A stretch of DNA of 64,000 nt from the NCBI GenBank assembly GCA_031459855.1, contig JAVKHP010000001.1:1951906-2015905 (forward strand), given 5' to 3'. The notes beneath the pieces are model-generated. The model was not told where the DNA came from and ran no database searches. It saw only the letters and a list, made by a program, of their open reading frames with translations. This stretch comes from Armatimonadota bacterium (GTDB taxonomy: Bacteria; Sysuimicrobiota; Sysuimicrobiia; Sysuimicrobiales; Humicultoraceae). The translations under genes were made by a program, and so were the position numbers. Positions 2,532 to 16,729 of this stretch are shown one piece after another (the first letter of the stretch is position 1; every line of letters begins with the position of its first letter).

Positions 2532-2583
2532 CGCCGCCTTTCCCGTGTGCCGCACCGAGGGACGGGCGTCCGACGTGCCTCGG

Positions 2584-3108
2584 TCACGGACCGAACCGGA
2601 ACTCGATCTGGTCGCCGTCTTTGGGCACGTACGCGTGGGCGTCGTCGATGGGGTTTCCGTTGACCAGCACCGCCACGCGGCCCGTCCGGCCGTCAGGGCA
2701 GCGGTCGCCGGTCGTGTAGGTCTTCCCGCGCACGGTGAGGGAGGTGTTGGTCACCTCCATCCCGACGCTGCGCAGGAAGGCGCCTAGGGTGGCGTTGCGG
2801 CCGGCTTCCTCCGGGGTGGCCGGGTGAATGTGGATCACGTCGTCGCCGTGGGTGTGGACGTTGCCCGGTGACGGGGGCAGCGGAGGCGTGCGCTCGCCGC
2901 ACAGCACGATCCGGAACGGCGCGTGCCAGTGGTCGCCGACGCGCGGCAGGCGCGCACCCGGCCGACTGCCCAGCGCGATGAGGACGCCGACGACGGCGAC
3001 CAGCGCCACGGCGGCTGCGGCCCACGGCGCCGGGCTGCGGCGCGGGGCCACCAGGGGCTTCTTCGCCTGCCTGGGCCGGCCCCTGCCCGGCCGCGGATGG
3101 TCAGGCAC
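2584..3108 (-). CDS. Membrane-anchored His-rich protein, unknown function
   Basis: The 174-residue product starts with a basic, Pro-rich cytoplasmic tail. One transmembrane helix follows at about residues 27-48 (PWAAAAVALVAVVGVLIAL), then an external domain of about 120 residues. That domain holds clustered histidines (HWHAPF near residue 60 and HTHGDDVIHIHP near residue 87) and ends in a beta-rich part that resembles a ubiquitin-like/MoaD fold (VLVNGNPI ... GDQIEFRFGP). Similar HWHA proteins occur as uncharacterised membrane proteins in high-GC bacteria. The histidines suggest metal binding, but this is inference. It lies 105 bases downstream of the sufT-like gene on the same strand. Confidence 0.65.
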   Translation of the reverse strand: MPDHPRPGRGRPRQAKKPLVAPRRSPAPWAAAAVALVAVVGVLIALGSRPGARLPRVGDHWHAPFRIVLCGERTPPLPPSPGNVHTHGDDVIHIHPATPEEAGRNATLGAFLRSVGMEVTNTSLTVRGKTYTTGDRCPDGRTGRVAVLVNGNPIDDAHAYVPKDGDQIEFRFGP

Positions 3109-3213
3109 CGCCGTCTCCTGCCGCGCGGGTAGGGGCCGCGGCGACCGTGCGCGTGCAGATGGGGACGTTGGTGGAGACCAAGTGTGCCACGACCACGCTA
3201 CAGCGTCCCTTGG

Positions 3214-3531
3214 CTACACGGGAATGCCCATCATCTGCAGCTGCAGCCGGCCGTCCTCGGTGACCCGATCGGGCGTCCACGGCGGCGTCCACACGAACTC
3301 CACGGACACTGACTCCGCCCCGATCGCCTGTAACTTGTTCTCGATCTCGGCGGCGATCATGGGACCCACCGGGCAGCCCGGTGCGGTCAGGGTCATGGTG
3401 ATGCGGACCTGTTCGCCCTCGACCTGGAGGTCGTAGACGAGCCCCAGGTCCCAGACGTTGACCGGGATCTCAGGATCGAAGACCGTCTTCAAGACGTCGA
3501 TGACGCGTTCGCGGGTGATCGCGTCGTCCAT
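3214..3531 (-). CDS. sufT: SufT/DUF59 metal-sulfur cluster assembly factor
   Basis: This 105-residue MIP18-family (DUF59) protein is predicted to help mature or target Fe-S clusters in the cytoplasm. The conserved motif TAPGCPVG around residue 52 contains the family cysteine, and DPEIPVNVWDLGLVYD near the N-terminus is the family signature. The ATG at 3531 has GGAGGAA a few bases upstream. An upstream frame extension to 3606 lies in the promoter and 5' leader, so it was rejected. The -35 box overlaps the left target duplication of the mobile element. The symbol is by family only; PaaD-like relatives share the domain. Confidence 0.82.
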   Translation of the reverse strand: MDDAITRERVIDVLKTVFDPEIPVNVWDLGLVYDLQVEGEQVRITMTLTAPGCPVGPMIAAEIENKLQAIGAESVSVEFVWTPPWTPDRVTEDGRLQLQMMGIPV

Positions 3532-3576
3532 CGCGCATTCCTCCGCACGGGCCCGGCAGGCCGCGGAACTTGGTTC

Positions 3577-3606
3577 ATTGTACCGGCCTGGCGCGGGCGG
3601 GGTCAA
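3577..3606 (-). promoter_or_regulatory. Promoter of the sufT-like gene
   Basis: On the minus strand, TTGACC (3606-3601) and TACAAT (3582-3577) are 18 bases apart, a strong sigma-70-type match. The predicted start near 3570 gives a leader of about 40 bases that carries the GGAGGAA ribosome site. The -35 box shares bases with the 14-bp target duplication at 3602-3615. Confidence 0.6.
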
Positions 3607-3615
3607 ACGGCGAGG
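3602..3615 (+). repeat. Left target-site duplication of the Cas1 element
   Basis: GTCAAACGGCGAGG is found here and again, perfectly, at 16444-16457, immediately outside the two inverted-repeat tips. A 14-bp duplication matches the 14-15 bp reported for casposase integration. The match extends further on the right side only because a solo element end follows there. Confidence 0.8.
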
Positions 3616-3990
3616 GGGATAAGAGCCTAACCCTGCCGGGAGTTCCCCCTACAGTTCGCTCGTCGGGGGTTTGTGCAAGGGGTGGCTTCATGCCTCCCCT
3701 GGTGGGAGTGTGGGGTGACGTGGGTGTGGTGGGGCGTGTGGTCTGGTGGCGCGGGTGGCCTCTGCCGTGGGGGTGTGACGTGGTGACGTGGCAAGGCGCA
3801 CGTGGGGTGGTCTCTGCCCTCTCCCCCTGGTGGGTCACTGTGCGGTCGCGCCAAGCGTGCCCCGTGGAGGTCGCGGTCTATTGGGCCTCCCCCCTGGGCC
3901 GGCGCGGGGGGGCTTGGCGGGACGCGGCGTCCTCGGGGCGCCACCCCCTCGGGAGGCCGACCGTGGGTCGGGCTGCCCGCGACCCGCACT
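3616..3990 (+). repeat. Left end of the Cas1 element (inverted repeat plus subterminal region)
   Basis: The first 36 bases are the terminal inverted repeat. The rest, to about 3990, is a G/T-rich, gene-free stretch with landmarks shared in order with the right end and with the solo end: a GTGCAAGGG-type motif about 60 bp from the tip, GTGGTGACGTG near 3780, a TGGGTCACTG block near 3831 and a GCGTGCCCCGTGG block near 3855. Open frames across it are low-complexity and not credible genes. These blocks are candidate integrase or HTH binding sites. Confidence 0.65.
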
Positions 3991-4038
3991 AGCCGGCTGG
4001 GCTTGGCCGGAACGAACAAAATTGCGTGTCTCGTCGCT

Positions 4039-5061
4039 TCAAATGTCGACATCGACTGTGTAATTGATCCGTCCTCCGTTGGGAATCACGTAGGAAAACA
4101 CTCGCTCTTGCCGCACGAAGTTCTCCAGGGTTCCAAACATCCGGCGGATATTGGTCAAGGTATACTGAGTAGGATTGCGACGCCCCTCGATGAGTTTGTA
4201 GGGGGGCGTAGGTATCGTCATTCGCGGCCAGCAGAAAGCATCAGCGATCAAGTCGGCAAGCGCTTGAAGATTATCACGGCATTGATTAGGGTCCGGAAAC
4301 TGGCACTGATACCCACCTAGCCCCAAGTGGCGCGAGGTGACTTGCCCCCTTCCACGTGTAAACCCTACCCGTTCGATAGCGGGGAAGACTCGATCGCGCA
4401 TGGTTTCCTCAAAGGATTCTGTATCGATGCGGCTCAGCGTTGCCACAAGTTGCGGATGGGGAATCCAGTTTCTAACCCAATCGTGGACGTTCCTTGGATA
4501 TCTCTGACCGTTGATCCACGAAGAATCAGGGAGCCAGAGAAATGCCTCTTGGAACGGATCGCAGACGGGTCCAAGGTCAACATTGTGTAGCCAAAGCAAG
4601 AAATGAATCGTCCCCAACGGATACTTGTGCGGGAATGTTCTGCCATCGCAAAGACTACAGGCTTCTCCGTGATCTCGGGCACGACCGCCTCCGGCACGTC
4701 CAGTGACACCTCGAAAGAGGTTGGGGTTCACCGATTCGCGATGTTCGAGGATGTTGCCAGTAGCGGACTCTAGCAAAATATGGTGACCTATGCTTCTAAT
4801 TTCGGCGCGACTAACGTCGAGGTCGAGCCAAACTGCGTTGCGCAGGCACCTCGGACTGATCTGGTGCGAATACCAGACTTTGTGATAATCGACGTAGAAA
4901 CCAGCGACATCCCACGCGAACAAATGGTGCATCAGAACGCCGCACATTACCGAGTCCAAGTCGTCGCCGAGAACCATCTGGAGGCCTTGCTTTGTCAGCC
5001 ACGGGTGTCGCTCAAGGATTGACCCGCGCGAGAACTTGTCAAGGACATAGGGTTGGGTCAA
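4039..5061 (-). CDS. Unknown protein with DHH-phosphoesterase-like motifs
   Basis: The 340-residue product comes from a TTG start at 5061 with AGGAGG 8 bases upstream. Near residue 30 it has GDDLDSVMCG, and near residues 77-95 a LDLD...GHHIL pattern. The order and spacing resemble motifs I-III of DHH phosphoesterases, though the classic DHH triplet reads GHH. A CxxC pair (CSLCDG) lies mid-protein. GC is clearly lower than in the flanking core genes, consistent with transfer. It is transcribed divergently from the HTH-methyltransferase pair, as defence cassettes often are. I do not recognise a named family; the phosphoesterase suggestion is tentative. Confidence 0.55.
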   Translation of the reverse strand: MTQPYVLDKFSRGSILERHPWLTKQGLQMVLGDDLDSVMCGVLMHHLFAWDVAGFYVDYHKVWYSHQISPRCLRNAVWLDLDVSRAEIRSIGHHILLESATGNILEHRESVNPNLFRGVTGRAGGGRARDHGEACSLCDGRTFPHKYPLGTIHFLLWLHNVDLGPVCDPFQEAFLWLPDSSWINGQRYPRNVHDWVRNWIPHPQLVATLSRIDTESFEETMRDRVFPAIERVGFTRGRGQVTSRHLGLGGYQCQFPDPNQCRDNLQALADLIADAFCWPRMTIPTPPYKLIEGRRNPTQYTLTNIRRMFGTLENFVRQERVFSYVIPNGGRINYTVDVDI

Positions 5062-5127
5062 CAGCGTGACCTCCTGGCATTTCTAAGAGTGTTACCCTTC
5101 AGACTGAGTTTTCTCCTCGCCTTCGAC

Positions 5128-5156
5128 TTGACTCTGGCGGGAAGAGGCGATAAACT
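5128..5156 (+). promoter_or_regulatory. Promoter of the HTH-methyltransferase operon
   Basis: TTGACT (5128-5133) and TAAACT (5151-5156) are separated by 17 bases. Only 8 bases lie between the -10 box and the ATG at 5165, with no ribosome site, so a leaderless or nearly leaderless mRNA is expected. Confidence 0.6.
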
Positions 5157-5164
5157 ACAAAAAA

Positions 5165-5386
5165 ATGCGAAAAGAAGCAAATCACTCAATTAGCCAGCAG
5201 ACAGAGGGAGGAGACCTCCTGACGTTAGAGGAGGCAGCACGATTTCTCAGGCTGTCGCGGCATACTTTGTACAAGATGGTTTCCGCAGGTCGCATTCCTG
5301 CCCTACGCGCCGGGCGCCAATGGCGTTTCAGCAAACGACATCTTGAGGACTGGCTTAGAGACAACGCGAAAAGGCGGAGGGACTAA
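5165..5386 (+). CDS. Excisionase-family helix-turn-helix protein
   Basis: The 73-residue DNA-binding protein has the typical excisionase/MerR-like pattern: LTLEEAARFLRLSRHTLYKMVSAGRIPALRAGRQWRF in two adjacent parts (residues about 19-57), followed by a helix DLEDWL-like tail. Such proteins act as excisionases or as small transcription or specificity factors next to methyltransferases. It overlaps the methyltransferase start at TAATG, indicating translational coupling. No integrase partner of the tyrosine family is present, so a role in regulation of the operon, or in directing the Cas1 element, is possible. Confidence 0.75.
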   Translation: MRKEANHSISQQTEGGDLLTLEEAARFLRLSRHTLYKMVSAGRIPALRAGRQWRFSKRHLEDWLRDNAKRRRD

Positions 5387-6318
5387 TGAACAAGATTTTT
5401 CTCAAGAGCTGCGAGAGAATGGATGAATTGCCAGATGGGAGCATCGCTCTTACGGTGACCAGCCCACCTTACTGGAACGCTATCGACTACGACGTTCACA
5501 CAAAGAGCAAGGGCGCCAACTATCGCTACCGCCAGAACGTGCCATACGAAGAGTATCTTGGATTTCTGCGACGATGCTTCACGGAGGTCAAGCGGGTCAC
5601 GAAAGACGGAGGCTATTTGGCCATTGTGGTGGGTACCGTCCTCCTAAATGGCAAGCACACGCCTCTACCTTTCCACCTTGTGGGTCTTCTGGAGGAAATC
5701 GGTTGGGAATTCCATCAGGATATCATTTGGCACAAGTGCACTGCAGGTGTGAAGCGTGCGGGCTCTGTTATCCAGAAACCATACCCCGGTTATTATTACC
5801 CCAACATCATGACAGAGTACATCCTGATTTTCCGGAAACCTGGCGAGTCCAAGATCTACAACGCGATCTCTACGGAAAGGAAGGAAGAGAGCAAGATTCA
5901 AATTGATTCAGTCTTCACAATGGACACGGCAAACAACGTGTGGCACATTGCACCTGTGCCGCCAGGTCAATACAACCACCCTTGCCCGTTCCCCGAGGAG
6001 ATTCCTTATCGACTCATTACCTTGTACTCCTACAAAGGCGACACTGTTCTCGACCCCTTCGTTGGGGTGGGCACCACTCTCAAGGTTGCCCATAACCTAG
6101 GCAGGAGATGGATTGGCTACGAGATTATTGAGGAGTATGTAGAGGAGTCCTACCGCCGCATCAACCAGCCTTTGCGCTTACGCAAGCAATTGATTGTGTC
6201 ATTTGATAAGATCTCGCACGGCGTCAAGATACCCGCCAAGAACCCACCTAGGACCCCGTTCACTCGACCATGGCGGAAGAAACGGCAAAAGGGTCTTGAA
6301 CCCATACGGCTCTTCTAA
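5386..6318 (+). CDS. Beta-class DNA methyltransferase (SPPY type)
   Basis: The 310-residue enzyme should transfer a methyl group from S-adenosylmethionine to the amino group of cytosine (N4) or adenine (N6) in DNA. Motif IV TSPPYW is at residues 25-30 and the SAM-binding motif DPFVGVGTT is near residue 223. This permuted order defines the beta class. The length is normal and the frame intact. Its start overlaps the stop of the HTH gene. No restriction endonuclease of a known family is adjacent. The divergent 340-residue protein could be its partner, or the methylase may be solitary and protect or mark the element. The base specificity is unknown. Confidence 0.88.
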   Translation: MNKIFLKSCERMDELPDGSIALTVTSPPYWNAIDYDVHTKSKGANYRYRQNVPYEEYLGFLRRCFTEVKRVTKDGGYLAIVVGTVLLNGKHTPLPFHLVGLLEEIGWEFHQDIIWHKCTAGVKRAGSVIQKPYPGYYYPNIMTEYILIFRKPGESKIYNAISTERKEESKIQIDSVFTMDTANNVWHIAPVPPGQYNHPCPFPEEIPYRLITLYSYKGDTVLDPFVGVGTTLKVAHNLGRRWIGYEIIEEYVEESYRRINQPLRLRKQLIVSFDKISHGVKIPAKNPPRTPFTRPWRKKRQKGLEPIRLF

Positions 6319-6366
6319 CTGGCCCCGGGCTTGACCGAGCCCCCATCACAGCCAACAATAGAGGAT

Positions 6367-6406
6367 GTGAAGTGAAGTGAAGTGAAGTGAAGTGAAGTGA
6401 AGTGAA
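6367..6406 (+). repeat. Pentanucleotide microsatellite (GTGAA)8
   Basis: Eight perfect tandem GTGAA units. A promoter-like pair lies just before them (TTGACC near 6333, AACAAT 17 bases later), and the repeat lies in the leader of the secreted/membrane gene pair starting at 6472. Every frame through it meets TGA within 15 bases, so it is non-coding. Copy-number change could alter leader length or structure. Confidence 0.85.
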
Positions 6407-6471
6407 AGTGGGCGAAACCTGTCACCGGCGCTACATGGCGGTGGGCCTGATCATCGCACGGGGGCGAGGCC

Positions 6472-7287
6472 ATGTTGTCCACCGCAGGATTGCTGCTCTC
6501 GCTGATAACACCGTTTGTCGTTGCGATTCCTTCTCAAGTACTCCTCGCCCAGGAGCTGGAGTGTCGGGTATCAGAATGGCTACCTATTGGTTTGGCGAGG
6601 CAAGGTGGATACGCTTTCAATTACCAGTCGGGCAGAGGTCCAAACTGCAGGGTGTATCGCTTGCGTAATATGCCCGGCGGCCTCCTCACCCCGGTTCGGT
6701 GGAGGGACCGCGGAGAGATTTTCATCGATCAAAACCTCGCTGCTTGTACAAAGGAGACGCGCACGTGCCCCTGGATGGAGGCCATAAAGATATCATCGCG
6801 GGCGGTGACCGGGCGGACGACAATATCCTACGGCGTCAACAAGGACGAATACAGTGACTATCCTGACGCTTATCGACGCGGGGAACTTGCGGCGTTCGCA
6901 CCTCTCGTGACCATTCTGCGGGGGATAACCGCTAGCGCAGCAGGGGAGCCAGTGGAGATCGAGATCCGCGTAGTTTCGACTGTGCAAGCGGGGGCTGTTC
7001 TGAGGCTGCAGTATGAAATCATGCTCATTCGCAGTTCGGTGGGTGCCTTCGAGTATGTAGCGCCAGGGAAAAGGCCGGAAGGGTTCGGTATTGTATGGGA
7101 ATCCCCCACCAGCTCATGGTTTCTTGATTACATAGGATCCGTCAGACGATTGGCTATAGGTTCTCCACGTTCGGTCGCAACTTCCACTACTGCCCCTCTA
7201 CTCGTTGATTCGTCCCGACTCGTGGTCATGCAAAGGGACAGGGAGATTCTCGCCACTACTGCGCCCGCGTACAAACCTCGGGAATGA
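6472..7287 (+). CDS. Predicted secreted protein, unknown
   Basis: The 271-residue product starts with a clear signal peptide (MLSTAGLLLSLITPFVVAIPSQVLLA, in two parts) and has no further membrane segment. The mature part contains several cysteines (CRVSEW, NCRVYRL, CTKETRTC) that could form disulfides. No family is recognised. GC is lower than in the core genome. The stop overlaps the next start at ATGA, so it is co-translated with the downstream membrane protein. A secreted protein coupled to a small membrane protein could be an export or immunity pair, but nothing in the sequence proves this. Confidence 0.55.
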   Translation: MLSTAGLLLSLITPFVVAIPSQVLLAQELECRVSEWLPIGLARQGGYAFNYQSGRGPNCRVYRLRNMPGGLLTPVRWRDRGEIFIDQNLAACTKETRTCPWMEAIKISSRAVTGRTTISYGVNKDEYSDYPDAYRRGELAAFAPLVTILRGITASAAGEPVEIEIRVVSTVQAGAVLRLQYEIMLIRSSVGAFEYVAPGKRPEGFGIVWESPTSSWFLDYIGSVRRLAIGSPRSVATSTTAPLLVDSSRLVVMQRDREILATTAPAYKPRE

Positions 7288-7766
7288 AGCGTACGATCTG
7301 GGATGAGGTAAGGAGAGTCTTCAGTCTCGTCGAGTGGATATACAACTTGGTCAATGTCCTGACCAGTTTGTCGATGATCACGCTCCTCCCTTTCACCCTT
7401 ACGACTTCGCGAACGCTGCGGATTTACATAGTGTCGTTCGGTCTGTTGGGCGGCGCGCTCGGTTACTTGTTCACGGTCACGGCATGGGCAGGGAAAGGGA
7501 AGAAGCGTTGCCTCGAACAGCGTAAGAAATTCATAGTCCTCGCTCTCTTATCGCTTTTTTTCTACGCCTGCATGCTGATTGTGTTGGGTCCGGAACCCGC
7601 GGCTCGATACGCTTTCTTCGCGGCCATAAGGGAATTCCTCATGAAGGTAATGCTTCTTGCCAATCTGCTTACTGGGGTTGGTGCGGCATTGACAGTTTAC
7701 TTTCTGGTCAGCGTGATAACCATCTCTTCTAGCAAACTGGCCACGACTCCGAAGTCTAGAGACTGA
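7284..7766 (+). CDS. Small integral membrane protein, unknown
   Basis: The 160-residue product has about four predicted transmembrane helices, at residues about 20-40, 48-70, 83-103 and 118-145. Basic stretches lie between them (GKGKKRCLEQRKK), so that loop is probably cytoplasmic. The ATG overlaps the TGA of the secreted-protein gene. Its low-complexity hydrophobic composition gives no family hint. The tight coupling implies a shared function with the upstream secreted product. Confidence 0.55.
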   Translation: MKRTIWDEVRRVFSLVEWIYNLVNVLTSLSMITLLPFTLTTSRTLRIYIVSFGLLGGALGYLFTVTAWAGKGKKRCLEQRKKFIVLALLSLFFYACMLIVLGPEPAARYAFFAAIREFLMKVMLLANLLTGVGAALTVYFLVSVITISSSKLATTPKSRD

Positions 7767-7994
7767 GGCACAGGTGTGAGGCGCAGCCGAAGCGGTGCCG
7801 CCCGGTACTCGGTAGACCGCTAGTTTCACGGATTTTGTTGTCGTTTTTCGCCCTCAGGAACAGGAGCGAGACGGCACCTGCTGTAAGTAGCCGCTGAAAC
7901 GCCTCAGCCGAGCGGGAGGCGATGCCCGGTCGGGTTCAAGCCGCGAGCCGCAGTGCTCGCAATACCGCCTTTCGGGTGACGAGAAACTACCGCA

Positions 7995-9572
7995 CTACGT
8001 ACGCTGAACCATGCCGGCTTCCCCCCAACCATCTCGTGTTTCGACAGCTCTTCGCAGCGCCTCCCAGTGCCTGGGATGCGGCACGTACAAGCCACGCCGG
8101 ATCAGGGACGCATACCGCAGGGAGATCCCTGCTGCACGGACGATGCGCTCTAAGGGCACGGAGCGCAGCAGGGGCAGGATCTCCCGCCGGAACACCTCAG
8201 GGTCTGGGCGAGGGTGGGTCTCGTCCCACGCCCGCGCTTCCCGACGGCGCCGGCGCAAGGCTTCAGCCCGGCGGCGCGCGGCCTGCCCGCCATGCGAGGG
8301 ATCGACGCCCGTGCGGCGCCGCCGCGCAAACTCCCGCAGGCCGGCGGCCACGATGCGCTCTGTCTTGTCCTGCTTTCCGCAGTCGTCACAGAACATCCGG
8401 CCCCGCGCCTCCAGCACCACGCCACACCTGACGCAGACCGTGTACTCCAGCCCCGGAAGCGCAGGGGCGTTCGGCGCAGCCTTGCGTATGCCCTCCCGGC
8501 CGGCACTCCGGTTCGCCTGGGTGAGCGGGGTCGGCAGCCGCCGGCGGCTGCCTGCGGTCTCGGCCAGCAGCGCGGCCACCCGCTCGGCCCAGGGCGCCAC
8601 CGCCTGCGCCCACCGCGGCGAGGTCGCAAGCAGCGCCCGGCTTAGGGGCAGCAGCACCCGCACCTGGCCCCGGCTTACCTCCTGGAAGTCCCGGGCGCTG
8701 AACACCCTGGTCCGCAGCAGGTCGAGCACAAAGGCGTCTACTGCCGGCCGCACCGGCTCCATGAGGTCCAGGCTTAGCGACGCCCGGGCGGGCTGGTCGG
8801 CGTGCAGGATCCCTAGCCCTGGGTCCAGCCCCACGGCCTGGCAGGCGATGGTGGCCTCGGCTTCCAGCAGCGCGTAAAGGAGGTTCAACAGGGCATGGGC
8901 GGGGGTGGCCGCAAGCCTGGGGGAGCCAGTGATGGGGGAGATGCGGGGCCCCACAGTCTTCCAGTGCTCCGGCACTCGCCGGGCATCTGCCGTGGCCCAG
9001 CGCACCGGCAGCGGCCTCCAGGCCTCCCAGTAGAGAGTGCCGGCCCTGGCCTCGACCAGCCGCAGCCGCTCCAGGGTGTCCGCCCGGTGCAACACGTCCA
9101 GCTGCTCCCGGACGGCCCGTTGGGCGTCGGGGTTAGGAAGCTGCGCCAGCACGTCGGCCTGGGCCGCCAGCTTGGCGCTCAAGAGCTCGCGGGTGATCCG
9201 CACCCCGGCCTCGGTGCTGGGTGCCAGGGCCTGGGCCCGGCGCAGCCGGGCATCGTCCAGGCCCCGGGGGCCGCTGGAGAGCAGCACCGTGCCGTCCAGG
9301 TGCACGCAGATAAGCCCGGCGCCCACATCATGCAGCCACCGGAGGGCTTCCAGGGTCATGGTCCCACCGCGCCCGAACAGGACCAGCCGCTGCAGGCCGG
9401 CGGTCGCCCGGTGAAATCGTGCGGTGCGCCGCTCGTCACACCACCCGTCCTCGCAGACGAGGTGCCGGCGCCTCGTAAAGACCCGGAGGCCGTAGCCTGA
9501 GAGGACCAGGACCCCATTGCGGGGCGTGGGGGGTGCGGTGGGCTGCGCCCTGTGGTATGCTCCTGCTGGCAT
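7995..9572 (-). CDS. Solo Cas1 integrase with C-terminal zinc ribbon and HTH (casposase-like)
   Basis: The 525-residue product starts at ATG 9572 with a strong AGGAGGTGG site 6 bases upstream. Residues about 18-340 are a complete Cas1: a beta-rich N-terminal domain (NGVLVLSGYGLRV), then the catalytic helical domain with E174 (VEARAGTLYW), H257 (GLGILHAD) and D269 (LSLDLMEP), all three catalytic residues present. A zinc ribbon follows (C380/C383 and C395/C398), then an Arg-rich linker and an HTH near residues 470-510. No Cas2, other cas gene or repeat array is nearby. Casposases also carry C-terminal HTH domains, and this gene lies inside inverted repeats with a 14-bp target duplication. It is therefore the best candidate for the element's integrase. 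It is the second gene of a minus-strand pair with the 217-residue HTH protein. Confidence 0.88.
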   Translation of the reverse strand: MPAGAYHRAQPTAPPTPRNGVLVLSGYGLRVFTRRRHLVCEDGWCDERRTARFHRATAGLQRLVLFGRGGTMTLEALRWLHDVGAGLICVHLDGTVLLSSGPRGLDDARLRRAQALAPSTEAGVRITRELLSAKLAAQADVLAQLPNPDAQRAVREQLDVLHRADTLERLRLVEARAGTLYWEAWRPLPVRWATADARRVPEHWKTVGPRISPITGSPRLAATPAHALLNLLYALLEAEATIACQAVGLDPGLGILHADQPARASLSLDLMEPVRPAVDAFVLDLLRTRVFSARDFQEVSRGQVRVLLPLSRALLATSPRWAQAVAPWAERVAALLAETAGSRRRLPTPLTQANRSAGREGIRKAAPNAPALPGLEYTVCVRCGVVLEARGRMFCDDCGKQDKTERIVAAGLREFARRRRTGVDPSHGGQAARRRAEALRRRRREARAWDETHPRPDPEVFRREILPLLRSVPLERIVRAAGISLRYASLIRRGLYVPHPRHWEALRRAVETRDGWGEAGMVQRT

Positions 9573-9643
9573 GCAGGACCACCTCCTGTGTGCCGGGGTG
9601 CCCGCGCCTTCCTGGGCTGCCACGCTGTGGAGGCGCGGGCTTC

Positions 9644-10297
9644 CTACTTGGTACTGCTTTCGTGTCTCCTCCCGGTCTTTCTCGCGCTGTCTTTGCGTTT
9701 CCGTGCAAGCCATAGCACGAACAGGATAAGCAGGCGCTCCTCGGAAGGAATCCCCTGAAGCTTCTGCTCCCATTGCGGGAGGCCCATGATTTGGGACAGC
9801 GACAGGCGCAGCAAACCGAACTCCTCATTACCCACATCATGTGGCTCAGCATCTTTGAGCAGGCCGCGCCACCTCCGCACATTCAGCGGCCACGCGATGT
9901 CCGACCAACGGCGGCCGGTCTGTTGTATCGCTCGCGTACCTGCCTGCTCCTGGGCGTACCGCGCGGCCTCATCCAACGCTTGCGCGATCATCCTAAGCTT
10001 CCGTCTCGGCTGCTTGCGGTTCATCTCTCCGGACAGGCGGCGTAGAGCCCTCAGCGCCTGGCCCGAGGTAATTCCCAAGTTGGCAATGTACAGTCGCAGC
10101 ACCCTCCTGGCGAGCGATCGAATCCCTTGCTTTGCGAGGTCGTGCGCGTACTTCACCAGCGTTATGGAGTCATCGGGATACTGTCCTTCCACCGGCTCCG
10201 GGACGATCCCAGCCTTCCGAAACAGCTGAAGCTGGTACCAGGAAGTTGGGTACCCTTCCTCGGCTAGGCGTCTGAGAAGCGCGGATTGGCTAAGCAT
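9644..10297 (-). CDS. HTH protein co-transcribed with Cas1
   Basis: The product is about 217 residues from ATG 10297; a TTG at 10360 would give 238. The N-terminus (LSQSALLRRLAEEGYPTSW, then FRKAGIVPEPVEG) reads like a MerR-type winged HTH. The remainder is helical and basic, with many Arg and Leu, and ends in a Lys/Arg-rich tail. It ends 71 bases before the cas1 start on the same strand, so the two probably form one operon. A role as regulator or as accessory DNA-binding subunit of the integrase is inferred from position only. I know no exact family. Confidence 0.6.
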   Translation of the reverse strand: MLSQSALLRRLAEEGYPTSWYQLQLFRKAGIVPEPVEGQYPDDSITLVKYAHDLAKQGIRSLARRVLRLYIANLGITSGQALRALRRLSGEMNRKQPRRKLRMIAQALDEAARYAQEQAGTRAIQQTGRRWSDIAWPLNVRRWRGLLKDAEPHDVGNEEFGLLRLSLSQIMGLPQWEQKLQGIPSEERLLILFVLWLARKRKDSARKTGRRHESSTK

Positions 10298-10444
10298 CCC
10301 GAGCCAGCGGTAGGTAACAAACCTACAAACAATTCTGCCAGCATGTGTGGAATTCGTCAAGGTCTGAGACTAGTGTGGGGCCGTAGCGTGGCTATACGAT
10401 ATCCACAGACCGTCGGGTCCGTGCGCCGCCAGACGGTCAGCCGC

Positions 10445-10524
10445 GCGAGGCCAAGCCTGGCTAGGCCCGGCGCGGCGAAGCGAGGCGAGGCGAGGCATGG
10501 CACGGTCTGGCACGGCACGGCGTG
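10445..10524 (+). repeat. Degenerate pentamer repeat (GCNNG)16
   Basis: About sixteen consecutive 5-bp units fit GCNNG (for example GCCTG, GCTAG, GCGAG three times, GCATG, GCACG), with one GTCTG and a few GCNNA units. It lies in the 308-bp region between the divergent cas1/HTH operon and the replication-like operon. The strict 5-bp phase suggests an iteron-like binding array or an expanded microsatellite. Nothing else was recognised in that gap. Confidence 0.6.
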
Positions 10525-10606
10525 CTGGGTGGGGCCACGGGGCCGAGCGCCTCGTGGCCCGCATTCTTCTTTGGGGTGCGTACGACTACAAGGGGAGGTG
10601 AGACGA

Positions 10607-10930
10607 GTGACACTCACCGCAGAACGGGTACACCGCAGAGCGCAGTTCGCGGAGAGCCAGGGTGGATCGTTGACCTTCCGTAGGCGCCGAGTCGACGCGG
10701 CATTCCTTCGGGCGTTGTTGGAGCGAGCAGGTGATGCCACGTGGCTGTGTAGTGGAGGGGTCTACCTGCACGAGGACGCCAGCCGCGTGGCGTGGGCGTT
10801 GCGTCGATGGTTCAAGGTGAACCGGCCCGACATGCGCTTGTCGGTCCGGTTGGAACCCGTAGACGGTGGCTGGCGTCTATGGGCGTGCGTGCAGCCTCGC
10901 ACACCTGGGCACCCCGAGGATCAGCCATGA
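10607..10930 (+). CDS. Small basic protein at head of the replication-like operon
   Basis: The 107-residue product starts from GTG 10607, with AGGGGAGGTGAG a few bases upstream fixing the start. It is Arg-rich with an alpha/beta pattern (FLRALLERAGDATWLCSGGVYLH, in two parts) and a C-terminal strand pair. The family is not recognised. Its stop overlaps the ParB-like start (ATGA), so it is translationally coupled to it. A DNA-binding or partition-accessory role would fit but is not shown. Confidence 0.5.
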   Translation: MTLTAERVHRRAQFAESQGGSLTFRRRRVDAAFLRALLERAGDATWLCSGGVYLHEDASRVAWALRRWFKVNRPDMRLSVRLEPVDGGWRLWACVQPRTPGHPEDQP

Positions 10931-11643
10931 GCGACGGGAACGTCGTTGAGGTTCGGGTAGATCACCTCGTGGTGGACCCGACCGTGCAACCCCGTATGCG
11001 CGGCGTCACGCAGCAGCACGTGGCGCTCCTGCACGAAGGGCTGGCTGCAGGAACGCTGCCGCCTATCACGGTTACGCCACGACGGGATGGGCAGTTCGTC
11101 GTGATTGACGGCGCACACCGGCTTGAGGCCTACCGCAAAGCCGGCGTGAAGACCGTGCCTGCGCGCGTCGTAGAAGCTGCGGGCTACTGGGAGGCGTTCT
11201 GTGCCAACCGCGACCACGGCCTGCCGCTGACCATCGAAGACCGCAAGCGCGCGGCAGTCTGGCTCAAGCAGCATCGTCCCGAGCTCAGCGTCCGGGCGAT
11301 TGCGAAGGAGGTCGGCCTCGCCGTGAGCACCGTCCAGGGCGCGCTCTGCCAGCGCCGGCGGATCCAGCGCGGCGGTGGTCTGGCCGTACAGCGACCAGAC
11401 CCGTGGCGGCGTTTCCTGCGGGCACTGGCGCAGCTCTACGAGCGCCGCGGCGACGACCCGCGCTTCGTGGACAGCCTCGCGCAGGACCTCGTGGATCTGG
11501 TGGAGGGCACCTCCGACCCCGGCTTGGTGTGGGATGCGCTCCTCGACTTCGTTGCAGCCGTGGAGCGGGCCTGGGAGTTGACCGAGCATCTCTATCCGGA
11601 GGAGGGCACGAACAACACGCCCCGGGCGTCGTCCCGGGGCTGA
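10927..11643 (+). CDS. ParB/Srx-fold protein
   Basis: The 238-residue protein has a ParB N-terminal (ParB/sulfiredoxin-like) domain at residues about 7-90. It includes DPTVQPR and VIDGAHRLEAYRKAG, the family's phosphate-binding GxHR-type signature. An HTH follows at about 110-140 (SVRAIAKEVGLAVSTVQGAL). Chromosomal ParB is a CTP-dependent partition clamp, while element-borne relatives act in partition or regulation. There is no ParA next to it. It heads a cluster with two deoxyribosyltransferase-fold proteins and a helicase, a plasmid- or phage-like replication module. Its stop lies just after a strong hairpin at 11619-11640. Confidence 0.82.
   Translation: MSDGNVVEVRVDHLVVDPTVQPRMRGVTQQHVALLHEGLAAGTLPPITVTPRRDGQFVVIDGAHRLEAYRKAGVKTVPARVVEAAGYWEAFCANRDHGLPLTIEDRKRAAVWLKQHRPELSVRAIAKEVGLAVSTVQGALCQRRRIQRGGGLAVQRPDPWRRFLRALAQLYERRGDDPRFVDSLAQDLVDLVEGTSDPGLVWDALLDFVAAVERAWELTEHLYPEEGTNNTPRASSRG
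11619..11640 (+). promoter_or_regulatory. Intercistronic hairpin at the ParB-like stop codon
   Basis: GCCCCGGG and CCCGGGGC form a perfect 8-bp stem around a 6-base loop, ending one base before the TGA. No T-run follows, so it is not a terminator. It may stabilise upstream mRNA or limit coupling to the next gene. Confidence 0.5.
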
Positions 11644-11658
11644 TGAGAGGACCGTGCC

Positions 11659-12108
11659 GTGGTATCTCAATTACATTCTCCACGTACACCCCATCGCACG
11701 TCAAGAGCCCTCCGGGGGCTTCGCGGCCAGGTCGTCTACCTAGCCTCCGCGGTCGCGTTGTACCGCACGCGCCACTACGACCGGGCCGAGCAGCTGCTGC
11801 GCGAACTTGGCGCTGGCCTCGTGATTTCCGCGCGCGAGCGTTTCCCGAACCACGGCGCCTGGCTGCGGGATTTTCCCCAGGTCCTCTCCCAGGTGAACGC
11901 CGTCGTGGTCGCGTTGGGACCCGACCGCATCGTCGGCGCGGGCGTCGTGCGGGAGGTCGTGGAAGCGACAGCGCACGGGCTCCCGGTGCACTTCCTGACG
12001 CCGGACGGGACGTTTCGGACGCTGCGCGGTGCGCACCTGGTGGTCTTACACGGCGTCAGCCTCCGCCGGTTCGCCCGCGTGGAGTTCCCGGCCGGGAGAG
12101 AGGCGTAA
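11659..12108 (+). CDS. Deoxyribosyltransferase-fold protein (DUF4406-like), copy 1
   Basis: The 149-residue product starts from GTG 11659. The core VVYLASAVALYRTRHYDRAE, then VNAVVVALGPDRIVGAGVVREVVEA, shows the Rossmann-like pattern of nucleoside 2-deoxyribosyltransferase/DUF4406 proteins: an N-terminal strand, a distant carboxylate, and a hydrophobic strand followed by a small-residue turn and helix. Such proteins are common in phages and may act on modified nucleotides or NAD-like ligands. It is paralogous to the next gene, which overlaps it by a TAATG stop-start. The catalytic Glu position (REVVEA) is kept. Substrate unknown. Confidence 0.6.
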   Translation: MVSQLHSPRTPHRTSRALRGLRGQVVYLASAVALYRTRHYDRAEQLLRELGAGLVISARERFPNHGAWLRDFPQVLSQVNAVVVALGPDRIVGAGVVREVVEATAHGLPVHFLTPDGTFRTLRGAHLVVLHGVSLRRFARVEFPAGREA

Positions 12109-12527
12109 TGCGCCGCGTGTATCTCGCCGCACCCTGCGCAGAGTACGCGCCGGACGTCTACCGACGCGTCACCGACATCTTCCGGCGGCGTGGCGCCGAG
12201 GTCGTCTCCAGCCGCGACCTCTTCCCAACGCCCGCCGCATGGCAGCGCGGGTGGCGGCAGGCGTTGGACGGGTGCACGGACCTGCTGGTGCTGCTTGGGC
12301 CCCAGCGTGTGCTCGGGGCCGGCTCGCTGTTGGAGGTCGTCGAGGCGCGCGCCGCTGGCAAGGGCATCTGGTTCGCCCAGCCCACCGGTGCGATTCGCCC
12401 GCTGCCCGGCGTTTGGCTGCAGTTTCTCCCGGGTCGGTCCCGAGTGCGGGTTGCCCAAGTCAACTTTGAGCCACGTCGCAACAGGCAGCCGCCCCGGAAA
12501 CCCGGGGCGGCCGAAGGAGGAAGCTGA
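12108..12527 (+). CDS. Deoxyribosyltransferase-fold protein (DUF4406-like), copy 2
   Basis: The 139-residue product starts at ATG 12108, overlapping the previous stop. MRRVYLAAPCAEYAPDVYRR at the N-terminus and DLLVLLGPQRVLGAGSLLEV in the middle match the fold of the preceding gene, with which it aligns throughout. The C-terminus is basic and overlaps a GC-rich hairpin. Having two adjacent diverged copies suggests a heterodimer or a recent duplication. The family's usual role is N-glycosidic bond chemistry on nucleotides; here the substrate is unknown. Confidence 0.6.
   Translation: MRRVYLAAPCAEYAPDVYRRVTDIFRRRGAEVVSSRDLFPTPAAWQRGWRQALDGCTDLLVLLGPQRVLGAGSLLEVVEARAAGKGIWFAQPTGAIRPLPGVWLQFLPGRSRVRVAQVNFEPRRNRQPPRKPGAAEGGS
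12488..12511 (+). promoter_or_regulatory. Intercistronic hairpin before the helicase gene
   Basis: A 10-bp GC stem (GCCGCCCCGG paired with CCGGGGCGGC) closes a four-base loop. It lies at the end of the DUF4406-like copy 2 and 5 bases before the GGAGG site of the helicase gene. There is no T-run. It may affect helicase translation. Confidence 0.5.
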
Positions 12528-12529
12528 CC

Positions 12530-13906
12530 GTGAGCCAGGTACTCACGCTTCGATCTCGTTCTACCACACGCAAGCCTACTGTGTATCTTTCCGCCACTCA
12601 GGACCCGGCGCTGCGTGAACACGAGGTCCTCCAGGCGCTCAGCCGCCTGCGTCCCCCGCAGGTGTTCGTGCGCGGCGGCCGCCTCGTGCGGGTTGTGGCG
12701 ACGACGCACGGTGCGCAGCTCGACGAGCTCGACGAGGCCGCGTTGAGTGGGATATTGCAGCGCAGCGTGACGTTCGTCCGCGTTGATCGCCACCGGGTCA
12801 CGTATGCGTACCCACCCCGCGAGCTCGTGCGCATGATCCTGCGCCGGGGCTCCTGGCCGCTGCCGGACTTGGTGGGCATCGTGCGCTGCCCGGTGGTGCG
12901 GCCTGATGGCATCATCGTGCTGCGCGAGGGGTACGATCCGGCTACTTGCTTGTACTACGCGGCTGGCGACCTTGACGTGCCGTGCCCCCCGGATGACCCC
13001 ACGCCCCACGACGTTGACCGCGCACGGCAGCTGTTGCTGGAAGAGCTGCTTGGCGACTTCCCCTTCGCCGACGACGCCAGCCGTGCCAACGCCCTGGCGC
13101 TGCTGCTGTCCCCGCTGCTGCGCTTCGCCGTCGCAGGATCCACGCCGCTCTTCCTCGTCAGCAAGCCCACGCCGGGAACAGGGGCGACGCTGCTTGCCCG
13201 CGCCGCCGCGCTCATCGCAACGGGGCACGACGCAGTCACCAACCCGCCCGAGAGCGAGGAGGAAGCCCGCAAGCTCATCACGAGCGTCCTGCTGGAGGGC
13301 CGCCAGGTGGTCGTGCTGGACGACGTCGGCAGCCTGAAGCTGCGCGCGCTGAGCCACCTGGTCACGACGAAACGGTGGAGTGCGCGGCTGTTGGGTACGA
13401 ACCGGGTCTGCGAACTGTTACAATCTGCGACCTGGATCGCCACGGGGAACAACGTGCAGCTTGGCGCCGACCTGGCGCGCCGTGTGGTCTGGATTCGGCT
13501 GGACGCGAAGCACTACCGCCCCTGGGAGCGCAGTGGGTTTCGGCATCCCGACCTATTGCGCTGGGTTCGCGAGCATCGCGGGGAGCTGATCTGGGCTCTG
13601 CTGGTCCTCTGCCGCGCCTGGTGGGCAGCAGGCTGCCCGGAAGCAGAGGTACCCACGATGGGCGGGTTCGAGGCCTGGGCCCGCCTTGTAGGGTCGATCC
13701 TGCACCACGCCGGCATTGAGGGGTTCCTCGCCAACCGCCAACAGCTTTACGACCTTGATCAGGAACACGCCGGCTGGTTCGAGTTTTTTGTAGTCTTGCA
13801 GGAACGAGCGCCTGCGCGAGGGTGGCGGAGGCCGTGCGCACGGAGCTGCTGGAGCTCGAAGACCTGCGCTCGCTACTTCGGGATCATCCGAACAAAGTGG
13901 CCCTGA
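12530..13906 (+). CDS. AAA+/SF3-like replicative helicase of a mobile element
   Basis: The frame of 458 codons starts at GTG 12530 after a clear AAGGAGGAAG site. The C-terminal half is an AAA+-type ATPase: a Walker A-like KPTPGTGATLL near residue 221, Walker B VVVLDDVG near 263, and a sensor-1 type ATGNN near 306. An Arg-rich region follows (DLARRVVWIRLD). The Walker lysine position reads Ala, which is unusual and may weaken ATP use. The last 40 residues (after FEFFVVLQ) look out of frame. A T6 run at 13784-13789 allows a -1 shift into the next HTH frame. It probably drives replication of the element, taking the place of the casposon polymerase. Confidence 0.65.
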   Translation: MSQVLTLRSRSTTRKPTVYLSATQDPALREHEVLQALSRLRPPQVFVRGGRLVRVVATTHGAQLDELDEAALSGILQRSVTFVRVDRHRVTYAYPPRELVRMILRRGSWPLPDLVGIVRCPVVRPDGIIVLREGYDPATCLYYAAGDLDVPCPPDDPTPHDVDRARQLLLEELLGDFPFADDASRANALALLLSPLLRFAVAGSTPLFLVSKPTPGTGATLLARAAALIATGHDAVTNPPESEEEARKLITSVLLEGRQVVVLDDVGSLKLRALSHLVTTKRWSARLLGTNRVCELLQSATWIATGNNVQLGADLARRVVWIRLDAKHYRPWERSGFRHPDLLRWVREHRGELIWALLVLCRAWWAAGCPEAEVPTMGGFEAWARLVGSILHHAGIEGFLANRQQLYDLDQEHAGWFEFFVVLQERAPARGWRRPCARSCWSSKTCARYFGIIRTKWP

Positions 13907-14124
13907 GCCGCCAATGCCGCGTGAGCCGGCAAAACATCTACCGCATCATCTCCGGGGACCGCACCCCGTCCGAGGCCCTCCGCGCCCGCCTCCGGGCCAC
14001 CCTCGCATCGAACACCACCGAACAGTCAAGCCCACCCCGAGGTGGCACATGGGGTGCGGAGTCCAATGGACGGGTTGCCGCCAGAGGCGGGCGCGAAGGA
14101 TCCGTGAGTGAGATGGGACGTTAG
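13822..14124 (+). CDS. XRE-like HTH protein or C-terminal extension of the helicase
   Basis: The 100-residue frame starts from GTG 13822 and overlaps the helicase frame by 85 bases. HPNKVALSRQCRVSRQNIYR, then IISGDRTPSEALRARL, is a lambda-Cro/XRE-type helix-turn-helix. The tail is low-complexity. It may be translated on its own, or it may be the natural C-terminus of the helicase reached by a -1 shift at the T6 run 13784-13789. The latter would also explain the poor-quality helicase tail. Confidence 0.5.
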   Translation: MAEAVRTELLELEDLRSLLRDHPNKVALSRQCRVSRQNIYRIISGDRTPSEALRARLRATLASNTTEQSSPPRGGTWGAESNGRVAARGGREGSVSEMGR

Positions 14125-14297
14125 GCTGATCAGCAGTGTAGTATACTGTCAAAAAATAAGGGGTGAGCAGTCTGGCGGAGACCAAAACCGGTTGGGCGGT
14201 TCCGGTCGATGAGTCACCGGGCCCCGGGGATGTTAGGCCGACGCAGGTGGGGTGTTAGGTCGGTACAAAATGAGTTCGGCAGCAGGGTGATGCGGCC

Positions 14298-15242
14298 ATG
14301 AGGACACAGTTTCTCGCAAATGGCCTTTGGCGCCGGTTGTCCTCGATGGCCAAGCGCACCAAGGGCCAAGTCGCTGTGCCATACTTCGGGACCGGCGGGG
14401 CGGATCTGCTTCCGCTTCGGCGCGGAAGCCTGCTTGTTGTGCGATTTGACACCGAGGCGATAAAGACCGGGCAGACGAACCCTTCCGAAATCATTCGACT
14501 ACTCAACCGCGGGGTCGAGGTTCACGCCTGTCGCAACCTCCATGCGAAGGTGTTCGTTTTTGGAGACACGGCGGTGATCGCCTCCTCAAACGTGTCTCGC
14601 TCCGCTGCGAATCACCTGATCGAAGCCGGGCTTGCGACCTCCTCGCCGGCTCTCGTCAGCGCGTCACGCCGATTCGTTGAATCCTTGCGAGGTGACCCGA
14701 TCGGATTGGAGTTCGCTCGGAGGATGAAGAAGCTATACCGTCCGCCTCGTGGCGGGCGGATCCAGCGTGGTGCTGGTCCAACTGCAGGTGCACCGCTTCA
14801 CTCCCGGATGTGGGCCGTTCCCCTCGTGCGCGGCTCCTTCGAAGAGGAGGATCGCCTCCAGCGAGATGAGGCGCGTGAAGCAGCTAAGCGTAGGCGCGAA
14901 AACCCGCGAGCCACCAGGATCGAGGACTTCCTATGGACAGGCGACAGTTTCCTGGACAGGCTCCACCTCGGCCACCGCGTCGTCATGGTCACTGATGAGG
15001 CCAACGGCAAGCGCATGGTGTCGCCGCCCGGCCGCGTTCTCGCCATCAGGAAGTACCGTGTTCGGAACCAGTCTCGTGCCATCATCGCCCTTGAAGTACC
15101 GAAAGACGCACGCAACCGCAGCATCCAGCGTGTCGTCCGATCCATTGGTCCAACGGCCAGGATACTGAGGAAGCTCGCTTCACCGCGCGAGATCCGAGAT
15201 GGAATGCTGGCCATGTCGCTGGCAAGGATGTGGTCATCGTGA
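14298..15242 (+). CDS. PLD-superfamily nuclease-like protein
   Basis: The 314-residue product has one HxK(x4)D-type catalytic motif, NLHAKVFVFGD, near residue 80, followed by IASSNVSRSA, the Asn/Ser part of the phospholipase D signature. One motif per chain implies an active dimer, as in the Nuc/BfiI restriction-enzyme branch of the family. The C-terminal half is basic and probably binds nucleic acid. As cargo of a mobile element it could be a restriction or defence nuclease or a DNA-processing factor. It is followed at about 90 bases by two small genes. There is no strong ribosome site, so the start is tentative. Confidence 0.7.
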   Translation: MRTQFLANGLWRRLSSMAKRTKGQVAVPYFGTGGADLLPLRRGSLLVVRFDTEAIKTGQTNPSEIIRLLNRGVEVHACRNLHAKVFVFGDTAVIASSNVSRSAANHLIEAGLATSSPALVSASRRFVESLRGDPIGLEFARRMKKLYRPPRGGRIQRGAGPTAGAPLHSRMWAVPLVRGSFEEEDRLQRDEAREAAKRRRENPRATRIEDFLWTGDSFLDRLHLGHRVVMVTDEANGKRMVSPPGRVLAIRKYRVRNQSRAIIALEVPKDARNRSIQRVVRSIGPTARILRKLASPREIRDGMLAMSLARMWSS

Positions 15243-15333
15243 AAAGTCGTACCGAACATGCCGCTTCAGCGGACGGGGCGCTCGCGTTGCTCGCGCTCCC
15301 GCCGCTGAGCAACTGGAGCAGGGGGGAGAGAAA

Positions 15334-15528
15334 GTGGAGCGATCTGTTCAGATACTTCGGCTTGAGCTAGAGGGTAAGTGGTCCGCGGACGAGCTGGGCG
15401 AGGCCTTGGTCAGTATCTCGAATCTCTACGATCTGCGGTTTTTCCTTGAGCTGCTACATGAGGATCAAGAGGACTGGGTGCGCTTCTACGAAGAGCTGAT
15501 GCGCTTTCCGCCGTTCAGACGCCGTTGA
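15334..15528 (+). CDS. Small acidic protein, unknown
   Basis: The 64-residue product starts from GTG 15334, with GGGGGGAGAG a few bases upstream. A helical pattern (LEGKWSADELGEALVSISNL, then FFLELLHEDQEDWVRFYEEL) suggests an acidic all-helical adaptor. Twelve bases separate it from the next gene, so the pair is probably one unit. Similar small partner proteins occur in predicted bacterial conflict systems, but I cannot name the family with confidence. Confidence 0.5.
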   Translation: MERSVQILRLELEGKWSADELGEALVSISNLYDLRFFLELLHEDQEDWVRFYEELMRFPPFRRR

Positions 15529-15540
15529 CGGAAGCGCTTT

Positions 15541-15990
15541 GTGTACTGGGGACCTAGCCCATGGGCACCCTGGTTCCCCAGCTCCTTCCCTCCGGTACTT
15601 GACGACGTTCAACTTTCGCAACTCTGGCAGCTGCTTGAGCCTGAGGAGCGTCTTGCGGTTCGGCGTATCAACTACGCATCTCCTGGCGCAACCGACTTAG
15701 CGGGCATCGGCACTGTGGTCGGCCACATCAAGGACTTCATCCTGAAGCTTATCGAACGCCGGGATTCCAGGCGGAGGCGGGAACTGGACGAGGAACGAGC
15801 AGCACTGGAGAACGAGCGCATTCGGCTCGAGAACGTCAAGAGCTTTGTCGCTCTTGCACGCGACCTCGGCTACTCGGAGACCGATCTTCGTCATCTTATA
15901 CGATACGTTGACGGAAAGCAGGATATTCTCGTTCGCCTCATCGAACAGCGCAAGCTGGTAGGGGTGTCGATGCCGGAGACGACAGACTAA
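15541..15990 (+). CDS. Coiled-coil protein, possible conflict-system component
   Basis: The 149-residue product starts from GTG 15541. The middle has INYASPGATDLAGIGTVVGH (a glycine-rich short motif after a strand), then a charged coiled coil at residues about 75-105 (RRRRELDEERAALENERIRL) and a C-terminal helical part. The SPG...D..G.G pattern recurs in uncharacterised small proteins paired with other small proteins in high-GC bacteria. It follows the 64-residue protein closely and is the last gene before the right end. No catalytic motif is visible. Confidence 0.5.
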   Translation: MYWGPSPWAPWFPSSFPPVLDDVQLSQLWQLLEPEERLAVRRINYASPGATDLAGIGTVVGHIKDFILKLIERRDSRRRRELDEERAALENERIRLENVKSFVALARDLGYSETDLRHLIRYVDGKQDILVRLIEQRKLVGVSMPETTD

Positions 15991-16029
15991 CGATGACGGT
16001 CAGACACGCCGATGCAGCGGCCGGCGGAG

Positions 16030-16443
16030 CCGGTCCGCTACATTGCTACATTGTTAGACCACAACGCAACCTTGGCCCGAATAGTGGCTCCGCGGGCAGC
16101 GGGACGAGGCAGCCCGCCCCCGGGGGTAGCGCCCCGCCCCGCAGCGCCCCAGGGCCAGGGCCCCGCGCACGCGACCCGAGACGGGGGGCCAAGCGGCGAC
16201 CCCCCACGGGGCACGCCCCGCGGGACCGGATAGTGACCCACAGAGGGCAGAGAGCAGACGCCGCCTGAGGGCCCGCCCATCACGTCACCACGCCACGCCC
16301 CACGACCCACGGCACACCAACGTCCCACGACCCGCAGCACCCGCAACCCACGGCTCACGCCCACCCAAGGGCCCAAGACCCTTGCGCAACCCCTTGACTG
16401 TCGCCTCTAGGGGGAACTCCCAGCAGGGTTAGGCTCTTATCCC
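16030..16443 (-). repeat. Right end of the Cas1 element (inverted repeat plus subterminal region)
   Basis: Read on the minus strand from 16443, it starts with the 36-bp inverted repeat. It then shows GCGCAAGGG about 60 bp in, GTGGTGACGTG near 16291, a GTGGGTCACTATCCGG block near 16230 and GGGGCGTGCCCCGTGGGG near 16213. The order matches the left end. No credible gene lies here. Confidence 0.7.
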
Positions 16444-16457
16444 GTCAAACGGCGAGG
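16444..16457 (+). repeat. Right target-site duplication of the Cas1 element
   Basis: A perfect copy of GTCAAACGGCGAGG (3602-3615) directly outside the right tip. It is followed immediately by the tip of the solo element end at 16458. Confidence 0.8.
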
Positions 16458-16660
16458 GGGATAAGAGCCTAACCTTTCCCCGAGTGGCCTCTGGAGGTCG
16501 CTTGTCACGGGTCGCGCAAGGGTTTCTGGTGGTGTGCCTCTGGGGGCGGGGTGTGTGGGGTGTGTGGCGTGGTGACGTGATGGGCGGGCCCTCGGGCGGC
16601 ATCTGCCTTCTGTAGGTCACCGTCTAGTCCCGCGGGGCGTGCCCCGTGGGGGTCAAGGCC
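16458..16660 (+). repeat. Solo element end in direct orientation beyond the right boundary
   Basis: GGGATAAGAGCCTAACC at 16458-16474 repeats the element tip. Further shared blocks are GCGCAAGGGTTT near 16518, CGTGGTGACGTGATGGGC near 16568, a TCTGCC...GTAGGTCACCGT block near 16601 and GCGGGGCGTGCCCCGTGGGG near 16631. The spacing is about 50 bp shorter than in the true ends. No second end is seen before the UPF0182 gene, so this is a remnant of an older insertion or an ancestral target. Confidence 0.65.
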
Positions 16661-16729
16661 CGCGGGGCGCGCCCGGATGCCGTGCGTGGTCGCCCGCATA
16701 AACAGATGGCAGGGAAGGACAGGTGGGCC

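Follow-up and report, generated by a model that had tools for sequence, protein, structure and literature searches.

A gene for a Cas1-like integrase lay between long inverted repeats in the window (the whole stretch of 64,000 nucleotides that was analysed). This locus raised the question of whether the Cas1 had moved the DNA between the repeats and which site it had chosen for insertion. We considered it very probable that the best explanation was a casposon-type transposon whose Cas1 inserted at a promoter -35 box with a 14-bp stagger. The features of the locus were collected in Table 1.

Element ends and empty sites

The element extended from position 3616 to 16443 and carried 36-bp terminal inverted repeats (TIRs) at both ends that were mismatched at 1 of 36 positions. 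Its outer borders were formed by a perfect 14-bp target site duplication (TSD), GTCAAACGGCGAGG. An earlier note on this DNA had claimed both features, and both were recovered by a repeat search and by a scan for TIRs and TSDs together in the first 25 kb. Namely, the top-ranked pair in the scan coincided with the element ends (20/20 tip matches plus the 14-bp repeat), and the runner-up had 14/20 tip matches plus 12. The tip, GGGATAAGAGCC, was present in three copies genome-wide, all of them at the element locus. Two other candidates were rejected: a tip-like match in G028:C26 had no partner and was taken as chance, and an apparent 20-bp TIR pair at locus L030 consisted of inverted CRISPR-like repeats at both contig ends.

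The divergent neighbours of the element, an FeS-assembly gene (PF01883) and a UPF0182 gene, were kept together in 26 or more genomes of the same order. The earlier note had proposed empty sites as a check on the boundaries, and such sites were present in the nearest relatives (G002, G006, G008, G009 and G010), where one GTCAAAC-type site lay between the flanking genes, no element was present and the boundaries agreed. Thus, the window element was a real bacterial transposon, apparently moved by a Cas1 relative. The suggestion that it was active or recently active stood in part: the near-identical TIRs and the perfect TSD made it plausible, and the single copy in the genome spoke against it.

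Table 1. Coordinates of the element, its genes and its flanks in the window
Feature	Position	Strand	Basis
Predicted promoter of FeS-assembly gene, -35 overlapping the duplicated target	3577..3606	-	pattern match
Flanking host gene, FeS-assembly (PF01883)	3214..3531	-	family match, conserved neighbour in relatives
Left (gene-proximal) 14-bp TSD, GTCAAACGGCGAGG	3602..3615	.	repeat search, TIR+TSD scan
Left TIR, tip GGGATAAGAGCC	3616..3651	+	inverted-repeat match
Cargo: unknown 340-aa ORF	4039..5061	-	ORF list, family search
Cargo: N6/N4 DNA methyltransferase, type II-like	5386..6318	+	family matches
Cargo: two unknown ORFs (6472-7287 and 7284-7766)	6472..7766	+	ORF list, family search
Casposase-like Cas1, the predicted integrase, with a zinc-binding and HTH-like region at its C-terminus	7995..9536	-	Pfam, alignment, tree, model
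238-aa ORF upstream of cas1, no family match above cut-off	9644..10360	-	family search
ParB-N/HTH-like protein, weak match	10792..11643	+	PF02195 2.9e-5, below cut-off
Small ORF, by eye similar to the next	11659..12108	+	ORF list
Small ORF, by eye similar to the preceding one	12108..12527	+	ORF list
C-terminal domain of a phage-type primase-helicase, truncated at its C-terminus compared with L025	12530..13906	+	phrog_10537 2e-82
Short HTH ORF resembling the C-terminal HTH of the relatives' PolB	13822..14124	+	14.6 bits, PolB C-terminal profile, weak
Cargo: PLD-like protein, distant DrmC similarity	14298..15242	+	family matches
Cargo: two unknown ORFs (15199-15528 and 15541-15990)	15199..15990	+	ORF list, family search
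Right TIR (one mismatch)	16408..16443	-	inverted-repeat match
Right (gene-distal) 14-bp TSD	16444..16457	.	repeat search, TIR+TSD scan
Orphan end (remnant) of a related second element, directly at the distal TSD	16458..16654	+	tip and identity to right end
Flanking host gene UPF0182, start approximate	16724..19498	+	family match, conserved neighbour in relatives

The Cas1 protein and the host CRISPR-Cas locus

The Cas1 was recognised by Pfam (PF01867, E 1.6e-36), and PADLOC and NCBIfam agreed. The active-site residues E162, H245 and D257 (E174, H257 and D269 in the numbering of the earlier note) were invariant in an alignment of 22 rows, confirming the claim of a stand-alone Cas1 with an intact active site. 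The same alignment contained conserved Cys pairs and an HTH-like region at the C-terminus. A structure predicted from 22 relatives had a mean pLDDT of 82.9 with low confidence at residues 341-364 and 410-416. The best fold match of this model was casposase 6OPM of Methanosarcina (Z 29.1, 304 residues superposed at 2.6 A) and the next was the Archaeoglobus CRISPR Cas1 (Z 26.4), the search bearing chiefly on residues up to 330. The element-borne Cas1s grouped together with 100/98 support in a 35-sequence tree, apart from 13 CRISPR Cas1s; the single experimentally studied casposase (6OPM) was included, its node not being fixed by the tree.

If the Cas1 belonged to a CRISPR adaptation module, the repeats around it would be unrelated to it. 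The genome did have a type I-E CRISPR-Cas locus, about 0.93 Mb from the element (L144, 4362-7500 and 7809-13247), with an array of some 50 repeats. However, this locus encoded its own Cas1 (Cas1e), so the Cas1 of the element was a second, separate one. Moreover, the window Cas1 grouped with element-borne Cas1s in the tree, there was no cas2 or CRISPR array near its gene, and Cas1 and TIRs occurred together in nine elements. An origin from an adaptation module was therefore extremely improbable, and the earlier note's own refuting case, a Cas1 in the CRISPR adaptation clade without linkage to the TIRs, was contradicted by the tree and by the nine elements. The Pfam model PF09827 for Cas2 had no match in the genome despite the long array; a further ORF was present at L144 7499-8212. 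A comparison of the type I-E spacers with the window gave short, chance-level matches only.

Relatives of the element

Scanning around cas1 for both ends yielded nine bounded elements from two host lineages (the window element, G100, G212a, G112a, G171, G248, G188, G313 and G107). The TSD was exactly 14 bp and the tips began with GGG in all nine, and most genomes had one such element. The idea of a bacterial Cas1-linked transposon with casposon-like ends was thus supported by this linkage. Loci with the same Cas1 family were found in Acidobacteriaceae by a scan of genome contigs, and 27 of the 300 genomes related to one of these hosts carried the family. In 386 genomes selected around that of the window, the majority from other orders, there was one further match, whose contig coordinates were equal to those of the acidobacterial G151.

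The Cas1 could also have been a passenger in an element moved by a transposase in trans, as the existence of a 1.78-kb relative lacking cas1 might suggest. On the other hand, family searches of the element's proteins found no other recombinase, transposase or integrase family, in agreement with the earlier note. Furthermore, Cas1 lay inside the ends of 9/9 bounded elements (in a search that was centred on cas1), and casposases produce TSDs of 14-15 bp (PMC6614799). We therefore regarded a passenger role as very unlikely and the Cas1 as the predicted catalyst of integration.

The 1.78-kb relative was located upstream of valS (L171, contig C33 of G125) and had near-perfect casposon tips, a perfect 14-bp TSD and one cargo ORF. 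It was a non-autonomous mini-element, and its genome had no match to the element-borne Cas1 family. In another Acidobacteriaceae contig of 11 kb (L038, PMMJ01000426.1), two different cas1 genes in opposite orientation (2196-3956 and 8960-10609) had a broken PolB between them, so this locus was possibly a fusion of two elements. A scan of viral contigs with Cas1 gave three matches and no TIR-bounded element. One of the three, a 9.5-kb contig labelled viral (L192, IMGVR_UViG_3300048818_000271), encoded a Cas1 that was 45% identical to the element-borne family and had no PolB or recognisable tip. Searches of plasmid and phage collections found either ordinary CRISPR Cas1 or a single short match.

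Probable loss of the polymerase module

In the relatives, genes for Cas1, a conserved HTH protein, HNH and PolB followed one another in a fixed order, and the same set is the core of casposon families 2 and 3 (PMC4046053). Within the order of the window's host, one relative (L025) had a Cas1 that was 56% identical to that of the window, a PolB-like protein and the same primase-helicase. A second one (L028) had a Cas1 at 32-35% and a PolB recognised by phrog_1907 (1.6e-7), and two others (L026 and L027) were broken remnants. The element ends of L025 and L028 were not found, their contigs ending early. The L025 contig also carried two low-complexity or membrane-type ORFs and a resolvase (10198-12141 and 14845-15357), together with Cas1, helicase and PolB.

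In the window element, a PolB profile of 13 relatives gave nothing significant against all six frames, and neither the HTH core protein nor HNH, both present in most relatives, was found there. The window primase-helicase was 40% identical to that of L025 over residues 9-421, and the similarity stopped at residue 448 of 641 of the L025 protein. It was possible that the short HTH ORF marked the right edge of a deletion. As the weak similarity of this ORF to the relatives' PolB suggests, the element probably lost HTH-HNH-PolB in one deletion. Accommodating the element in a type without PolB, as the earlier note did, accordingly found no support in that form: close relatives carried PolB with HNH and HTH, and the window copy was most likely a derivative and not a type of its own. 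The helicase/ParB module of that note was retained in part, since the helicase, which one relative also had, was a phage-type primase-helicase in truncated form, and the ParB component was a weak match.

Hot-spring casposons of the proposed family 5 are mostly without PolB (PMC9755687), and the window element might likewise come from a lineage that never had the polymerase. We found this origin doubtful because the nearest Cas1 (L025) and a deeper branch (L028) both sat with HTH-HNH-PolB, and the truncated helicase abutted the PolB-tail-like HTH. Since PolB-poor casposons had already been reported, the absence of PolB was not new by itself. Lacking PolB, HNH and the conserved HTH protein, the element may be immobile now, and it would need the host or related elements in order to replicate or be excised.

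A predicted promoter -35 box as the target

When written in one direction, the TSDs of all nine bounded elements started with GTCAA[A/C]C at the same edge. On the other strand, the flank at this edge read TTGAC[C/A], then 17-18 nt, then TAnnnT and then a gene. In the window, the corresponding predicted promoter of the FeS-assembly gene had a -35 box TTGACC (3601-3606), an 18-nt spacer and a -10 box TACAAT (3577-3582) on the minus strand. Two one-ended elements (G265 and G112b) fitted the same pattern, and TAnnnT was found 17-18 nt after TTGACM in 11/11 gene-side flanks. It appeared at these spacings in 0.3-4% of shuffled flanks per locus, with a product over seven loci of 2.5e-13, a somewhat optimistic value since G112b, one of the seven, resembled the valS promoter and may not be independent. 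The -10 matches of the predicted promoters were mostly 4/6.

Most target sites were shortly upstream of a gene and in promoter orientation. The targeted promoters belonged to housekeeping genes, namely FeS-assembly and, as we presumed from their translations, valS (five times), thrS, a rodZ-like gene and a Ser/Thr kinase. Because five of the nine sites belonged to the same gene, the number of independent targets was about six. This promoter form was present in 23 of the 26 valS genes examined in further or overlapping genomes, with or without a neighbouring element end, and in one more the sequence was cut off just inside it. At several valS promoters, another element end was located exactly 14 bp away. 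A search with the strict promoter pattern had no match in G025 and G028. In G110 (L152/L183), two TTTGAC boxes lay 16 nt apart upstream of valS with GGGG between them; these were perhaps two duplication copies with almost nothing left between, a scar of excision or deletion.

Judging from these patterns, the target is the -35 box of a predicted promoter, which is left intact on the gene side. The heptamer GTCAAAC itself could be what is chosen, the promoter being incidental and the motif merely common in -35 boxes. The casposase of A. boonei requires a short border motif and a 7-nt leader motif in vitro (PMC6614799), and the TSD motif was nearly invariant in the bounded elements. We nevertheless considered a bare heptamer target rather unlikely, given the regular spacing of TAnnnT in all flanks, far above shuffles, and the position and orientation of most sites relative to a gene.

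Order of insertion

The distal side of the right duplication carried a remnant of about 200 bp whose first 17 bases were the element tip. Compared with the right end of the element, the remnant had 76% identity over its bases 1-66 and 84% over its bases 107-195, and the empty sites contained no counterpart. Distal flanks of other elements also scored as element tips: among about 80,000 positions, they took ranks 1-3 for G112a, G171 and G212a and ranks 8-14 for G107 and G313. None of the proximal flanks scored in the same analysis. Moreover, G123, a close relative of G100, lacked the G100 element at this site and had the older tip of G100 right next to the valS promoter. The G123 arrangement and the distal tips thus placed the newer element between the promoter and the older element, suggesting repeated promoter-proximal insertion at a handful of loci.

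We propose that the element-encoded Cas1 takes the GGG-tipped TIRs and would join both ends across a 14-bp stagger, with the target starting exactly at the -35 box (GTCAAAC, reverse complement GTTTGAC). Fill-in would then produce the 14-bp duplication. Since the insertion would occur on the upstream side of the -35 box, the gene-side TSD copy would keep the -35/-10 pair and the host gene its promoter, so that even a large element would avoid harm. Only this copy has a -10 box beside it, which would explain the polarity: a later element would again insert by the promoter and push the older one away. Promoter DNA, or RNA polymerase on it, may be what is recognised. It was somewhat more probable than otherwise that this bacterial casposase clade treats promoters (a -35 with its -10) as a leader-repeat junction, with 14-bp duplications from the -35 and successive promoter-proximal inserts, possibly guided by RNA polymerase or sigma factor.

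The CRISPR integrase is proposed to descend from casposases, and one question in this descent is how recognition of the leader-repeat border came about. With its defined promoter target, the constant 14-bp length of its duplication and the signs that insertion is polar and repeated, this clade allows the target choice of Cas1 to be tested directly in bacteria. Additionally, casposons had been described from very few bacteria, and Acidobacteria and the window's phylum now contribute many more.

Comparison with known systems

The window element had a stand-alone Cas1 with a full active site, TIRs, a 14-bp TSD and no other transposase, and it did not encode its own family B DNA polymerase. The definition of 2014 (PMC4046053) requires that a casposon be capable of self-synthesis. 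Thus, the window copy apparently works like a casposon and descends from one but lacks one defining feature; it is a casposon-derived element of a known kind.

Casposon family 3 (Krupovic et al. 2014, PMC4046053), compared here by its description, was similar in its bacterial host, TIRs, TSD of near 14-15 bp and tandem remnants, and its HTH, HNH and PolB core was found in the relatives of the window element. Its member AceAut-C1 shares the intact active site and the C-terminal zinc-binding and HTH regions of the window Cas1, fusions that are absent from some published family 3 members. In contrast to family 3, the window copy was without PolB, HNH and the core HTH, and the family 3 targets are described only as intergenic (PMC6614799), whereas here the target was a predicted promoter -35 box. 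The casposon targets on record (PMC6614799, PMC4046053) comprise tRNA genes, the 3' ends of genes for proteins such as EF-2, and sites called intergenic. The literature examined, including the titles from a full-text search and with most subscription papers outside it, contained no mention of a promoter as a casposon target, so the target rule was apparently new relative to published casposons.

The proposed family 5 casposases from hot springs (PMC9755687), also compared by description, share a Cas1 outside CRISPR loci, TIRs and a mostly missing PolB but were placed near the subtype I-A Cas1. TnGBS, ISLre2 and ISKra4, with Mutator-like DDE transposases (PMC3942029), also insert upstream of sigma-A promoters. 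However, their DDE enzyme is unrelated, and their insertion point is 15-17 bp upstream of the -35 region; in the present elements, the TSD itself included the predicted -35 box. Finally, spacer integration by the CRISPR Cas1-Cas2 shares the Cas1 fold, a duplication of fixed length and the placement of each new insert beside a leader-like region. Unlike that process, there was no Cas2 and no array here, and a whole transposon with specific ends was inserted. If our proposal is true, these elements would represent a whole-transposon version of leader-proximal CRISPR adaptation.
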